A stretch of 64,000 bases of DNA from Roseofilum halophilum BLCC-M91 (GTDB taxonomy: Bacteria; Cyanobacteriota; Cyanobacteriia; Cyanobacteriales; Desertifilaceae), in the NCBI RefSeq assembly GCF_030068445.1, contig NZ_JAQPOK010000084.1, positions 1 through 64,000 of the forward strand, given 5' to 3'. A program made the translations under genes and the position numbers. Positions 41,199-47,472 of the stretch are shown here, in pieces. A model generated the notes under the pieces. The model did no database searches and had not been told where the DNA came from. It was given only the letters and a program-made list of their open reading frames with translations. The stretch's first letter is position 1; every line of letters starts with the position of its first letter.

Positions 41199-41546
41199 CT
41201 AAGTTAATGAAGGTCTTGGGGTATCCCCTTCCACGGCTTGGCGATAGAACTCTACATTATCGTTGTAATCAATGGGAAGGACAGCAACGACGTTTTCGTG
41301 GGGGCGGGGGATGATTACCCAGGATTCTAGAGTGGCTCCATAGGCTCTCTCTACGGCCTCTATGCCTGCATCCATGGCCGTTTTTACCTCCGAAACGTCT
41401 CCCCGGATGTTTACGGTAAACCGAGCGCTCCCTACGCGAATATAGCCGACCAAGGTAATCCGTCCCGCTTTCACCATTGCGTCAGCAGCAGCTAAAATAC
41501 CTGGGAACCCCTTTGTCTCAATTGCTCCAACAGCTTGCTGTCCCAT
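41199..41546 (-). CDS. ccmK4: Carboxysome shell protein CcmK4-like
   Basis: A 115-residue BMC-domain hexamer-forming shell protein. Diagnostic sequences are GAIETKGFPGILAAADAMVKAGRITLVGYI, the pore-region KAxRIT...RVGSARFTVNIRGDVSEVKTAM, and WVIIPRPHENVVAVLPI. The AVGAIET...GSARFTVNIRGDV pattern and the longer C-terminus match CcmK4. CcmK4 forms hexamers, also mixed with CcmK3, and adjusts shell permeability (family knowledge). It lies 169 nt downstream of ccmK3 on the same strand. The main ccm operon is not here. Confidence 0.92.
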   Translation of the reverse strand: MGQQAVGAIETKGFPGILAAADAMVKAGRITLVGYIRVGSARFTVNIRGDVSEVKTAMDAGIEAVERAYGATLESWVIIPRPHENVVAVLPIDYNDNVEFYRQAVEGDTPRPSLT

Positions 41547-41639
41547 AATTGTTGCTCCTAATGTTAATCAATAACGATTTCTATGCAAGATTTTATTGTA
41601 GGGGTTTAGGGGGTCACTTGAATCAACAAAATGGGCAGA

Positions 41640-41680
41640 AGGGTAATGGGTAATCGGTAATGGGTAATTGGTAATCGGTT
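41640..41680. repeat. Heptamer repeats between ccmK3 and ccmK4
   Basis: GGGTAATGGGTAATCGGTAA and following GGTAATCGG units in the 169-nt ccmK3-ccmK4 spacer. They may affect relative expression of the two shell genes. Confidence 0.65.
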
Positions 41681-41715
41681 AAACCGGGTTTCCCTATTCC
41701 CTATTTCTCAACTCC

Positions 41716-42021
41716 CTAGCGGAACGGTTCACTGACTTCTGTGTAGTCTATGGGAAGTACGGCTTGCACATTTTCCGGGGGATTGGGGACAATGTAGTGC
41801 ATCATCACCTTACCTCCATAGACTTTTTCGGCTTCCTGAATTCCGACTTTTACTGCTGGTACAACTTCAGATGTCCCTCCCCGAATGGCAACCACAAAGT
41901 TACCACTTTCAGCGCGGTCAAAGTAAACAAGGGTAACTCGCGCTGCTTTAACCATGGCATCAGCAGCAGCGAGAACAGCAGGAAATCCTAGGGTTTGGAT
42001 GACACCAACAGCTTCAGGCAC
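41716..42021 (-). CDS. ccmK3: Carboxysome shell protein CcmK3-like
   Basis: A 101-residue BMC-domain shell protein. AVGVIQTLGFPAVLAAADAM, RVTLVYFDRAESGNFVVAIRGGTSE and HYIVPNPPENVQAVLPI closely follow CcmK3 as I remember it from Synechocystis, including the VYxDxAESGNFVVAIRG pore-side variant that replaces the usual RVGSARFTVNIRG. CcmK3 does not form homohexamers alone and pairs with CcmK4 (family knowledge), which fits the adjacent ccmK4 gene. The AGGAGAAC-like ribosome-binding site lies just before the ATG (minus strand). Confidence 0.92.
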   Translation of the reverse strand: MPEAVGVIQTLGFPAVLAAADAMVKAARVTLVYFDRAESGNFVVAIRGGTSEVVPAVKVGIQEAEKVYGGKVMMHYIVPNPPENVQAVLPIDYTEVSEPFR

Positions 42022-42611: not shown

Positions 42612-43122
42612 AGTTGCCTCATCCGCCTACGGGTGATAGAATCAGGTTTTGATTTTAGGGTTTAAATCCTACAGTGTAACATCATAGACTCGACTATAAT
42701 AGGGGCTTTAATGGGGCGATCGCCCCCCTATAATCCTTTCTTAAGATTAACCCGATGAACCCCATTGGGGAGCTTGAGGTTCAGGGAGATCTGGCCCCCA
42801 ACTTAGGGCGAAGGGATGCTACCCGTCATAGCTCAGACAGCCTCAAAAATCGCTCAAAGGCTCCCCTAGAGCAAAAAACAAGCGAAAAAATGTAGAACAT
42901 CTCAAAACCTGTCAGTTACAATGGCAGAAACCTACGGATTTTGCCCCCATCCGAGACCTTAATGGACTTAGTGATTCAGGGCATCGATCTGATGGTTTAA
43001 GCAACGGTATTGGAGGCTCTAAGGGTTTGAATCACTCGAATCAGACCCCTGCTGAAGTCTCCAGAATCGTCAGATTCCATACCCAACTGTTGTTCTATCC
43101 CTATTTACAATTCCAAACGCCT
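42612..43122. other. About 510-nt region upstream of infC
   Basis: The region between the divergent ilvH and infC genes. No ORF except the N-terminal extension of infC from TTG 43027. It has a palindromic CCCGATGAACCCCATTGGGG stretch near 42760 and a GGAGG at 43012-43016. infC leaders often carry regulatory structure, which may apply here. Confidence 0.5.
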
Positions 43123-43656
43123 GTGGTTGACAAGAGAAAAAATCGCGATCTTCCCCAAATCAACGAACGGATTAAATATCCAGAAGTTCGAGTTATTGAT
43201 GGTGATGGCACCCAACTCGGAATTATGTCTCCGAGAGACGGCCTGAAACTCGCTCAAGAACAAGAACAAGACTTAGTGCTGGTCAGCGATAAAGCTGATC
43301 CCCCCGTCTGCCGAATTCAGGATTACGGGAAATATAAGTTTGAGCAAGAAAAGAAAGCCCGCGAAGCCAAGAAAAAACAGCACACAGCCGATGTGAAAGA
43401 AGTGAAAATGCGTTATAAAATTGAGGAACATGATTATAATGTTCGTCTTAATAACGCGCGCAAATTTCTCAAGAAAGGTGATAAAGTTAAAGCAACGATT
43501 AGCTTTCGAGGACGAGAAATTCAGCATAGCAATTTGGCAGAAGAGTTGCTCAAACGCTTGGCAAAAGATCTAGAAGAAGAAGCTGAAGTACAGCAAGAAC
43601 CCAAACGGGAAGGGCGGAATATGATGATGCTCCTCTCCCCGAAAAAAGAGTTATAA
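43123..43656 (+). CDS. infC: Translation initiation factor IF-3
   Basis: Binds the 30S subunit and controls start-codon selection. The N-domain ([27 protein letters not shown], given in part) and the C-domain ([50 protein letters not shown]) are complete. The conserved protein begins near [13 protein letters not shown]. The start is taken at GTG 43123. An ACG two codons upstream (43117) aligns with the Met of relatives, and a TTG at 43027 with GGAGG 10 nt upstream would give a 32-residue extension. No ATG exists in the right place. Non-AUG starts are classic for infC autoregulation. Confidence 0.93.
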
Positions 43657-43728
43657 GTCAAGCAGTGCCTAGGAACGAGAGCGGTCTCTTGAACCTGGGC
43701 ATTGTTGGGCAGCATAAAATACCAAGAT

Positions 43729-46722
43729 ATGGAACTCAATTATCAGGGACGCGGCTTAAACAAGTGGGGACAACGGTTCTTCCAATGGTTTAACCTTCGG
43801 CCAGACGAAAGTGAGCGCACAGTCTTAATGCTGGCGTTTTATACGGCAAGTTGTGTGGGACTCAGTTGGACAGAAGCGAGTACTGCTGACTTGTTCTTGC
43901 AGCGATTTGGCGCTGAATCCTTACCTTGGATTTATATTGCCAGTGCGATTATGGGGTCAGGATTAGGGTTTTTGTATGACTGGTTGCAAACCCTGATCCC
44001 TTTGCGTAAGGTGATTGTGCTGACGGCCATACTGATGGCCATTCCCTTATTTTTATTACGCTTAGGGTTGGATCTGATTGTAATCGCTCCAATCTTGATT
44101 TTTTTGCTGCGTCTGTGGTGTGAAGCCATCTTTATTCTCAATGAATTAAATACCAGTATTTGCGCCAACCAACTGTTTAATATTCGAGAAATCAAGCGTA
44201 CCTATCCGTTGATTTCCAGTGGAATTTTGATGGCGGATGTGGTCAGTGGCTTTTCCCTACCGGTGATCTTGACGTTCCTGCGAGTGGAAAATATCCTGGT
44301 TTGTGCCAGTGTGTTGATGTTTGTGGGGGGAGCGATCGCCTTTTACCTCACCCAAAATTATCAACAATTTTTCCCAGACACCACCAGCCGTGTCTCCCAA
44401 GAAGACTCTTCAGACTTTACCCAGCGCCGCTTGGGTCGCCCCGTATGGCGATATGTGATCCCCTTAATTCTGTTCTTTTTTGTGGCTCAAGGCTCTTTAC
44501 AGTTCGTTGAGTTTCAGTTTTTTGACCAACTGGAAAAAAATCTCAATTCAGGAGAAGTCGCCAGTTTCCTGGGATTTTTCAATGGTGTGTTGGGAGTCTT
44601 TGAGCTGATTCTACAATGGTTTTTCTCCTCTCGGATCATTGAGCGTTTAGGGGTGTTTGTGGCGGCTTCTCTGTTGCCGGGACTGATGGGAATTATCAGT
44701 TTGATTTCCTTGGGCCATGTGGCGGATTTGTTTTGGTGTTTGATTACGCTGAAGTTTTTTGATGATTTGTTGCGCTATACGGTGGTCTTAGGGTTGGGGC
44801 CGGCTCTGTTCCAACCGCTTCCAGAAAGTATCCGTAATGGAATCCAGGCCTGGCGGGCGATCGCCGAACCGATCTCAACTGGAGCAACGGGTTTGTTACT
44901 TTTGGGAACCATTTGGTTTTGCAGTCAAATTCTGCCCCAACTTCAATCCCGACAGTCGGATGTGTTCCTGTTCCAAACCATTCTCATTTCCCTGGGCTGG
45001 TTATTGGCGATTTTCTTCCTGCGTTCTGGCTATGTGCAACTGTTGGTATCGAGTGCCAAAAGCGGCCGCTTAGGGGTCTCGGATGTGGATTTGCGATCGC
45101 TACAACGAAATGTGGCCGACACCCTGAAACAACCAGGAGCAGAGGAAGATAAGCGCTCTTGTATCGAACTGCTCAACCGATTTGACCCCCAAAATATTAA
45201 CGAAGTCCTGGTTCCCCTCCTGCCTTCCCTGTCTCCTGCTCTACAACGGCAAAGCTTGGAGGTACTACTAGAACATCCTCAAGCTAAGGATGTGGAAGCC
45301 ATTCGCGCCCTCACTCAAACTTCCTTGCTCCCGGATGTGTTGGCCCTAGCTCTGCGCTACATTTGGCTCACGGAAGCTGAACCCGATATCCGTCAATTAC
45401 GCAGCTATCTTCAACCCTCTGTCGATCCGGTGGTGCGGTCAACGGCAGCAGCCTTAATGCTCAAGCGCGGCAATGCTAAAGCCAAAGCCGAAGCCACTAA
45501 TACCCTGCGACGGATGGTGACTAGCGAGCAGGAACGGGAGCGGGTGATGGGATGTCGCGCTTTGGGGGAAGCGGTGTATATGCAAGCCCTACGGCTCTAT
45601 GTGCCCAATTTACTTCAAGATGATTCCCTGCGGGTGCGCTGTGCCCTGCTAGAGGCGATCGCCGCCACCCGTTTAGAAGAATATTATCCTTCCCTACTGC
45701 GGGGGCTTTACTATCAATCGACCCGCGAAGCTTCTTGTCGGGCGCTGGTTCGCCTCGGCCATGAAGCGATACCTCTGCTCTTAGACTTGGCCCGCGATAT
45801 CTATAAACCGGATCTGGTACGGATGTATGCTTGGATGACGATCGGTGAGATTAAAACACCCGAAAGTCTGCATGTGCTAACCCAAAATCTGATGACTTCT
45901 TGGGGTAGCACCCGACGCAATATCCTGAAAATCTTGATTAAATTACCCGACGATCTGGGAATTGAAAAAGTACAGACAGTCATGGGGCGATCGGGAATTG
46001 AATTATTGATTGACCAGGAATTGATGTTTATGGGTCAGCTTTATGCCGGACGCTTAGATTTGGCTGAGGAGCGGGTTTCTGGTCGAGAAGCTCAATTGCT
46101 GTTGCGATCGCTGACCGATTTGGAAACCGATTCGATTGAGCGCTGTTTTCTGTTGATGAAGTTTTTGTATCCCATCCAGAGTGTACAAGCGGCTGCCTTT
46201 AACCTCCAGTCCAATTCCATGAGTTCTCAAGCTAGAGGCTTAGAAATTTTAGATAATATTGTGGATATTCCCCATAAGAAAGCCTTGTTAACGGTACTCG
46301 ATCAATATACCACTGCCGAAAAACTGACTTATCTGGAGGATTTGGTGGTGTATCAACCCCTAAATCCGAGCGATCGCCTGCGCCATCTTCTTGACTTACG
46401 CCATTTTCTCTCCGATTGGCCCTTAGCCTGCTGTTTCCATCTCGCTCAAGCCTTTCGCTGGAGTACCACCGCCGAACATATTCTCGCCGGACTTCGCCAT
46501 CCCAGGGGATTTGTACGGGAAGCCGTCTTGAATTATCTTAAAGTAGCAAGCCCTTCAACCTTGAGTCAATTGTTGCCTATGCTCAAAAACGATCCCGATC
46601 GCCTGGTGGCTGCCCAAGTTCAAGCCTTAATTGAAGAGTTTGGACTCTCCCATACGGAGGTCTCCTCATCCTCAATCTTAACTGAGGATTCCTCAGATTT
46701 CCCCATCCCCCCATTCCCCTAA
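43729..46722 (+). CDS. NTT (ADP/ATP translocase)-like transporter fused to HEAT repeats
   Basis: A 997-residue protein. Residues about 25-455 contain around 11-12 hydrophobic helices and resemble the nucleotide-transporter (NTT/Npt) branch of MFS-like carriers: RVLMLAFYTASCVGLSWTEA-type start, LNTSICANQLFNIREIKR and GPALFQPLPESIRNG. Residues about 475-985 are helical HEAT-type repeats (VRSTAAALMLKRG, VRCALLEAIAATRLEE, REAVLNYLKVASP). Known NTTs import ATP or NAD into intracellular parasites and plastids, but free-living bacteria carry NTT-HEAT fusions whose substrate is poorly defined. The ATG at 43729 is preferred over a TTG 27 nt upstream. The C-terminus DFPIPPFP derives from CCCATT repeats. 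A cNMP-binding protein follows after 18 nt. Confidence 0.82.
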   Translation: MELNYQGRGLNKWGQRFFQWFNLRPDESERTVLMLAFYTASCVGLSWTEASTADLFLQRFGAESLPWIYIASAIMGSGLGFLYDWLQTLIPLRKVIVLTAILMAIPLFLLRLGLDLIVIAPILIFLLRLWCEAIFILNELNTSICANQLFNIREIKRTYPLISSGILMADVVSGFSLPVILTFLRVENILVCASVLMFVGGAIAFYLTQNYQQFFPDTTSRVSQEDSSDFTQRRLGRPVWRYVIPLILFFFVAQGSLQFVEFQFFDQLEKNLNSGEVASFLGFFNGVLGVFELILQWFFSSRIIERLGVFVAASLLPGLMGIISLISLGHVADLFWCLITLKFFDDLLRYTVVLGLGPALFQPLPESIRNGIQAWRAIAEPISTGATGLLLLGTIWFCSQILPQLQSRQSDVFLFQTILISLGWLLAIFFLRSGYVQLLVSSAKSGRLGVSDVDLRSLQRNVADTLKQPGAEEDKRSCIELLNRFDPQNINEVLVPLLPSLSPALQRQSLEVLLEHPQAKDVEAIRALTQTSLLPDVLALALRYIWLTEAEPDIRQLRSYLQPSVDPVVRSTAAALMLKRGNAKAKAEATNTLRRMVTSEQERERVMGCRALGEAVYMQALRLYVPNLLQDDSLRVRCALLEAIAATRLEEYYPSLLRGLYYQSTREASCRALVRLGHEAIPLLLDLARDIYKPDLVRMYAWMTIGEIKTPESLHVLTQNLMTSWGSTRRNILKILIKLPDDLGIEKVQTVMGRSGIELLIDQELMFMGQLYAGRLDLAEERVSGREAQLLLRSLTDLETDSIERCFLLMKFLYPIQSVQAAAFNLQSNSMSSQARGLEILDNIVDIPHKKALLTVLDQYTTAEKLTYLEDLVVYQPLNPSDRLRHLLDLRHFLSDWPLACCFHLAQAFRWSTTAEHILAGLRHPRGFVREAVLNYLKVASPSTLSQLLPMLKNDPDRLVAAQVQALIEEFGLSHTEVSSSSILTEDSSDFPIPPFP

Positions 46723-46740
46723 CTCAGACCTGGAGAAGTT

Positions 46741-47208
46741 ATGTTAAGTAGCGTTGACCGCTTGCTATTTGTGCGAGGTGTTCCCATCTTTAAGGAGTTA
46801 CGGGATGATTTTTTGGTGCGCCTAGCCTCGATTATGGATGAGTTATCGTTTCCTGCTGGACAAACGATTTTTACCCAAGGACAAGAAGGACGCTCTCTGT
46901 ATATTGTGGTCTCTGGACGGGTACGGGTGCATATTGGCGATCGCGATTTGGCTTACTTAGATAAGGGCACGACGTTTGGGGAAATGTCCCTGTTTGATGC
47001 GGAACCGCGATCGGCTTCGGTAACGGCGATCGAAACCTGCGACTGTTTGGTTTTAACCCAGCAACAACTCTATGATGCCATTGATGAAACTCCAGGCATT
47101 GCGGTCAATATTATTCGTTTGCTCTCCCGACGCATTCGCGAGTTAAACCAAAAAATCAACGCCCAAGAAAGTAAAATTCAAGAATTACAACTATCCAGCA
47201 AACATTAA
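46741..47208 (+). CDS. Cyclic-nucleotide-binding (CRP-like sensor) protein without HTH
   Basis: A 155-residue single cyclic-nucleotide-binding domain. The beta-roll is seen in GQTIFTQGQEGRSLYIVVSGRVRV (first part) and the phosphate-binding cassette in FGEMSLFDAEPRSASV, with Glu, Arg and Ser ligands for cAMP or cGMP. There is no DNA-binding domain; the C-terminal helix (LSRRIRELNQKINAQESKIQELQ) is a short coiled coil for dimerisation or partner binding. It begins 18 nt after the NTT-HEAT gene, so the two are probably one operon and the protein may gate or sense for the transporter (inference). Confidence 0.88.
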   Translation: MLSSVDRLLFVRGVPIFKELRDDFLVRLASIMDELSFPAGQTIFTQGQEGRSLYIVVSGRVRVHIGDRDLAYLDKGTTFGEMSLFDAEPRSASVTAIETCDCLVLTQQQLYDAIDETPGIAVNIIRLLSRRIRELNQKINAQESKIQELQLSSKH

Positions 47209-47331: not shown

Positions 47332-47472
47332 TTAGCCCAAGGCGTAGGCTGATTGTAGACCCCACCAAATTAAAACGGCAATACCACCTAAAACGACAAT
47401 AGACGAGATGGCGATCGCCGCCGCGCTATCTGCGCCTTTGAATTTCATGATGCCGCGATTTAAGTCAGACAT
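47332..47472 (-). CDS. 46-residue single-span membrane protein
   Basis: A small ORF on the minus strand beginning ATG at 47472 (MSDLNRGIMKFKGADSAAAI) and ending TAA at 47332. Residues 18-40 form one hydrophobic helix (AIAISSIVVLGGIAVLIWWG), flanked by a short charged N-terminus and an exposed tail LQSAYALG. GGAGGC lies 9-14 nt upstream on its strand, a good ribosome-binding site. The size and layout resemble small photosystem-associated or respiratory subunits, but I cannot assign it. It sits between convergent/divergent neighbours with its own promoter space. Confidence 0.6.
   Translation of the reverse strand: MSDLNRGIMKFKGADSAAAIAISSIVVLGGIAVLIWWGLQSAYALG

Follow-up and report, generated by a model that had tools for sequence, protein, structure and literature searches.

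A cyclic-nucleotide-binding protein co-inherited with an NTT-HEAT transporter-like protein in cyanobacteria: a probable functional unit

In Roseofilum halophilum BLCC-M91, a gene encoding a nucleotide-transporter-like membrane domain fused to a HEAT-repeat solenoid (NTT-HEAT) is followed closely by a gene encoding a small cyclic-nucleotide-binding (CNB) protein. Does the CNB protein belong with the transporter, or are the two genes neighbours by accident? We addressed this question in a window of 64,000 nt (positions 1 to 64,000 of contig NZ_JAQPOK010000084.1, forward strand), the relevant features of which are collected in Table 1. The initial annotation had described a 997-residue NTT-like plus HEAT protein, a spacing of 18 nt to the next gene and a stand-alone CNB domain with an intact phosphate-binding cassette and no DNA-binding part. 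The first of these descriptions was borne out by open reading frame analysis, Pfam and an AlphaFold model, the second by the sequence itself, and the third by the PF00027 match, an alignment with Escherichia coli CRP and a model of the protein.

Table 1. Features of the NTT-HEAT and CNB genes (window coordinates)
Feature	Coordinates	Strand	Basis
NTT-HEAT gene, 997 aa	43729..46722	+	ORF; PF03219 and PF13646; AlphaFold pLDDT 83.8
Predicted NTT-type membrane domain, residues ~22-444, 12 long helices	43792..45060	+	VIA-align, profile alignment, column counts
HEAT-repeat solenoid, residues ~455-970	45091..46638	+	PF13646; helical hairpins in model; alphaRep and PP2A A-subunit matches
18-nt intergenic spacer with RBS-like GGAGAAG (46732-46738)	46723..46740	+	sequence
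Stand-alone cyclic-nucleotide-binding protein, 155 aa	46741..47208	+	PF00027 7.2e-23; AlphaFold pLDDT 89; PDB matches Z 17-20
Phosphate-binding cassette FGEMSLFDAEPRSASV, residues 79-94	46975..47022	+	FGE and RSA in 49/49 orthologs read; CRP alignment
C-terminal helix 119-153, resembling the CRP C-helix and possibly used for dimerisation	47095..47199	+	DSSP of model

The NTT-HEAT gene lies downstream of infC (43027-43656). An in-frame TTG at 43702 offers an alternative start upstream of the ATG at 43729, but the ATG is favoured because the orthologs open with MELN or MELK. The gene ends with TAA, and the CNB gene opens with an ATG just after the spacer. Promoter and terminator scans gave matches that were no more numerous than in shuffled sequences, and the argument for an operon is therefore the 18-nt gap itself. 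An Rfam search for riboswitches or other known RNA elements gave no match. Elsewhere in the window, a 46-aa open reading frame on the minus strand (47332-47472) has one apparent membrane segment (MSDLNRGIMKFKGADSAAAIAISSIVVLGGIAVLIWWGLQSAYALG) and no Pfam match; perhaps it encodes a small membrane protein, photosynthetic or otherwise. Two neighbouring BMC-domain (CcmK-like) carboxysome shell genes occupy 41199-42021, also on the minus strand; Pfam confirmed PF00936 for the gene at 41716-42021, whereas the other was called by eye.

The gene arrangement has been known since 2017. Major, Embley and Williams (Genome Biol Evol, PMC5381601) describe NTT-HEAT fusions from bacteria, cyanobacteria among them, as well as a cNBD gene that follows NTT-HEAT 'at a distance of several nucleotides' and three-domain NTT-HEAT-cNBD fusions. 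In their hypothesis, uptake of ATP through the NTT protein is adjusted when cAMP binds. They report NTT-HEAT proteins to be widespread in free-living bacteria, Chlamydiae and oomycetes, none of them functionally characterised at the time. The domains, their order, the downstream cNBD gene, the cyanobacterial host and the fused forms are all shared with the system analysed here. The earlier suggestion that this unit was undescribed thus had to be given up, since that article already contains the gene adjacency, the fused form and an identical proposal about cAMP. Co-inheritance of unlinked genes, co-loss, missing lysines and an invariant cassette are not stated in the portions of that article available to us. 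Our literature search found no functional study of NTT-HEAT, and one later paper that names it merely cites Major et al.

To see what kind of transporter NTT-HEAT might be, we compared its membrane domain with known structures. The Pfam match to TLC (PF03219) covers residues 145-327 and is marginal (21.8 bits against a cut-off of 21), while HEAT_2 (PF13646) matches in four stretches (1.2e-18). In the AlphaFold model, the 12 long helices at residues 25-444 are followed C-terminally, in the same chain, by the helical-repeat solenoid. Using VIA-align, the first 444 residues of the model matched AtNTT1 with Z 35.3 (408 residues, 2.9 A) and NTT1 of C. pneumoniae with Z 32.2; the next-best structures, of the MFS, reached Z 25.8, about 10 below AtNTT1. 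A profile search agreed with this assignment (E 5e-11). Judged by the model, the membrane domain is a true NTT fold. The 12-helix fold is shared with the AtNTT1 and C. pneumoniae NTT1 structures (PDB 9j3j/l/m and 9j3n/o) over ~406 residues at 2.9-3.0 A, with a sequence identity of 14-15% only, and the window system adds the HEAT solenoid and the CNB partner.

Following Major et al., ATP/ADP would be carried by the NTT domain, either from cell to cell or through the plasma or thylakoid membrane, and cAMP would let the CNB protein tune this transport to the energy state of the cell. Besides having been proposed in print (PMC5381601), this explanation fits the fold, whose closest structural matches are clearly AtNTT1 and C. 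pneumoniae NTT1. It also fits the acidic residues of the transport site, which we compared through sequence profiles: E139 aligns with AtNTT1 E245 (D/E in 34 of 36 orthologs) and E261 with AtNTT1 E385 (D/E in 36/36). The two lysines with which AtNTT1 binds nucleotides point the other way. Among the 36 NTT-HEAT orthologs aligned, no lysine occurs in the K155 column (S/T/A) or in the K527 column (mostly T/S), and, although the register of helix 1 is uncertain, the absence of lysine does not depend on it, since, whatever register is chosen, the bodies of helices 1 and 11 contain no basic residue that the orthologs conserve. In AtNTT1, mutants of K155 lost ADP/ATP binding, K527E did not bind ATP, and K527R bound it only above 1 mM (PMC3306366). 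With small uncharged residues standing in for both lysines, ATP/ADP moved by canonical exchange is probably not the cargo. From the sequences, NTT-HEAT appears doubtful as a canonical ATP/ADP exchanger, and we regard the explanation of Major et al. in its original form as unlikely.

We then turned to the CNB protein. Its model shows the CNB fold in full, ending in one C-terminal helix of 35 residues, and matches domains of PKG, CRP/GlxR and MloK1 in the PDB. The cassette FGEMSLFDAEPRSASV aligns with GELGLFEEGQERSAWV of E. coli CRP, such that E81 and R90 fall on the cassette Glu and Arg of CRP. The fold, the cassette Glu and Arg and the long C-terminal helix are thus common to the CNB protein, the N-terminal domain of CRP/GlxR, MloK1 and PKG. 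In contrast to these proteins, the CNB chain carries no DNA-binding, channel or kinase part, and its effector would be a separate transporter. The chain stops after the C-helix, at residue 155, with no C-terminal helix-turn-helix, and we therefore rejected a role as transcription factor. The ligand, cAMP or cGMP, is unreadable from sequence because T127 and S128 of the CRP C-helix, which contact the adenine, correspond to L and N here. A ligand supply exists in the cell but is non-specific, as the genome encodes 19 class III cyclase domains and 21 CNB domains. Given the 20 CNB domains other than that of the window, cAMP has many possible receptors here.

Would the CNB protein need a cyclic nucleotide at all? 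It could serve NTT-HEAT as a chaperone or as a permanent subunit for structure or assembly, and no longer require the ligand, or never have required it. The protein is near-invariant also outside the cassette, for example at ELRDDF and LYDAIDETP, which suggests a partner surface and is a pattern to be expected if the protein contacts a partner, and fused relatives that lack the cassette arginine exist (see below). On the other hand, FGE and the cassette RSA are present in all 49 CNB orthologs read, linked or unlinked and from very different families. This would be unexpected if the pocket were unused. Two CNB paralogs in the same genome (L110, L141) did lose the arginine. A purely structural role therefore seems to us quite improbable. 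One of these paralog loci (L141:3359-4932, contig C12, minus strand) holds two tandem CNB genes; the first encodes a 168-aa CNB protein with 51% identity to the window CNB, and the second, directly next to it, a CNB-TerB-Mo_nitro_C (PF06967) fusion. Tandem CNB genes of a similar kind are present in three other genomes (G207, G393 and G405).

The distribution of the two genes was examined by searching 291 cyanobacterial genomes with each protein. An NTT-HEAT ortholog was found in 58 genomes and a CNB ortholog in exactly the same 58, a co-occurrence whose count is inflated by shared ancestry, which the Fisher test on these sets ignores. The cut-offs were placed at gaps in the match lists after these had been seen: NTT-HEAT main matches had E-values of 1e-176 or better, against 2e-20 and weaker in the remaining genomes, and CNB matches 2e-52 or better against 5e-42. 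Across many families, ortholog identities ranged from 41 to 97% for NTT-HEAT and from 57 to 100% for CNB; outside the genus, CNB evolves more slowly (57-84% compared with 41-64%). The tree of CNB sequences was weakly resolved: its branches are long, and 17 of its forks stay open. In a second sample, 389 genomes of the window's order that overlap the first sample in part, we obtained 227 NTT-HEAT matches and 218 CNB matches, and no genome had CNB only. The nine mismatches were re-examined. Two genomes (G350 and G454) proved on repeat search to have a CNB gene whose alignment had been internally broken; four (G022, G595, G371 and G405) hold only remnants or broken copies of NTT-HEAT; and three (G571, G575 and G579) are draft assemblies with NTT-HEAT running out near a contig end. 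After this correction, 220 of ~223 genomes with NTT-HEAT also have CNB.

Conservation of gene order had been proposed as a check, and here the outcome was divided. In 32 of the 58 genomes, CNB starts at most 450 nt downstream of NTT-HEAT on the same strand, and in 2 more within 2.6 kb; in the other 24, the genes are unlinked. Since all 24 still carry CNB elsewhere, loss of adjacency leaves the pair intact. Twenty-two of them belong to one family, which we take to be Nostocaceae, and the remaining two are G280 and G164. Two candidate explanations were rejected: chance adjacency, by the conserved linkage together with the identical phyletic sets, and the notion that the Nostocaceae CNB is a mere paralog, as it is 64-74% identical to the window CNB, compared with at most 51% for the paralogs in the latter's own genome. 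Within the window's genus, G358 has NTT-HEAT on contig C14 and CNB on contig C3, possibly a recent separation.

The unlinked genes raise the question of whether the CNB protein acts on NTT-HEAT. Both proteins might be inherited together by way of a common physiological programme, with CNB acting on another target. The Nostocaceae CNB indeed lies amid unrelated genes, and the slower evolution of CNB is as one might expect of a protein with several partners. What speaks against this explanation is the tight adjacency in most other families, the repeated co-loss of the two genes and their natural fusion. Remnants of NTT-HEAT beside infC remain in two genomes that lack CNB, namely 85 codons in G022 (L140:3953-4207) and C-terminal fragments in G097 (L139:5019-5538); in the family of these two, CNB is located elsewhere in the chromosome. 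In the window's own family, the NTT-HEAT gene of G371 and G405 is split into several pieces, some of which contain stops or lie in different frames, and the only CNB matches there are paralogs of ~50% identity; G371 is a draft, and part of its break-up may be due to assembly. G595 has a broken NTT-HEAT copy and no CNB ortholog match. Thus, in at least three genera a broken NTT-HEAT goes together with the loss of CNB. We found one counter-example: in G278, NTT-HEAT is cut at residue 854 (residues 1-854, C1:2034921-2037503), its last part lies ~540 kb away (C1:2572491-2572853), and CNB is kept.

Single-chain NTT-HEAT-CNB proteins occur as divergent relatives in the same phylum (L060 and L062-L066), with the CNB domain at residues ~900-1050, and such natural fusions point to joint action of the three modules. 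Three of them (L064-L066) have lost the cassette arginine, and ligand binding is therefore not universal in the wider family. Two genomes, G060 and G002, have the split NTT-HEAT and CNB pair plus a second, divergent fused protein (L064 and L065), the cassette of which reads FGDFGLFGETPYSATI. Taken with the adjacency and the co-loss, the fusions make it rather unlikely that CNB serves another target and leaves NTT-HEAT untouched.

We therefore favour, with moderate confidence, the explanation that the products of the two genes make up a single regulated transport unit, in which CNB is a dedicated sensing subunit and the cargo is probably something other than ATP/ADP. That NTT-HEAT and CNB form a functional unit had been proposed in the initial annotation, and this proposal gained support from the identical phyletic sets, which include unlinked pairs, from the co-loss and from the single-chain fusions. 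As to how such a unit might work, NTT-HEAT would be an NTT-fold secondary transporter of the MFS superfamily with a C-terminal HEAT solenoid, and the separately encoded CNB would be its sensor. A cyclic nucleotide, probably cAMP from the cell's own class III cyclases, would bind the intact cassette and shift the C-terminal helix of CNB; we infer that this shift would alter the docking of CNB on the solenoid, and with it transporter activity. A two-subunit, cyclic-nucleotide-gated secondary transporter of this kind, in which an obligatory trans-acting CNB gates an NTT-fold carrier of non-ATP/ADP cargo via the HEAT solenoid, is at present a tentative model.

Beyond the arrangement known since 2017, our analysis strengthens the case for functional coupling and urges caution about the cargo: the absent lysines warn against taking ATP to be the transported molecule. 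The CNB gene is kept or lost with the transporter even when the two genes are far apart, so that what was a guess based on an operon becomes a strongly predicted functional unit. In the filamentous cyanobacteria with unlinked pairs, either gene could be removed without touching the other.
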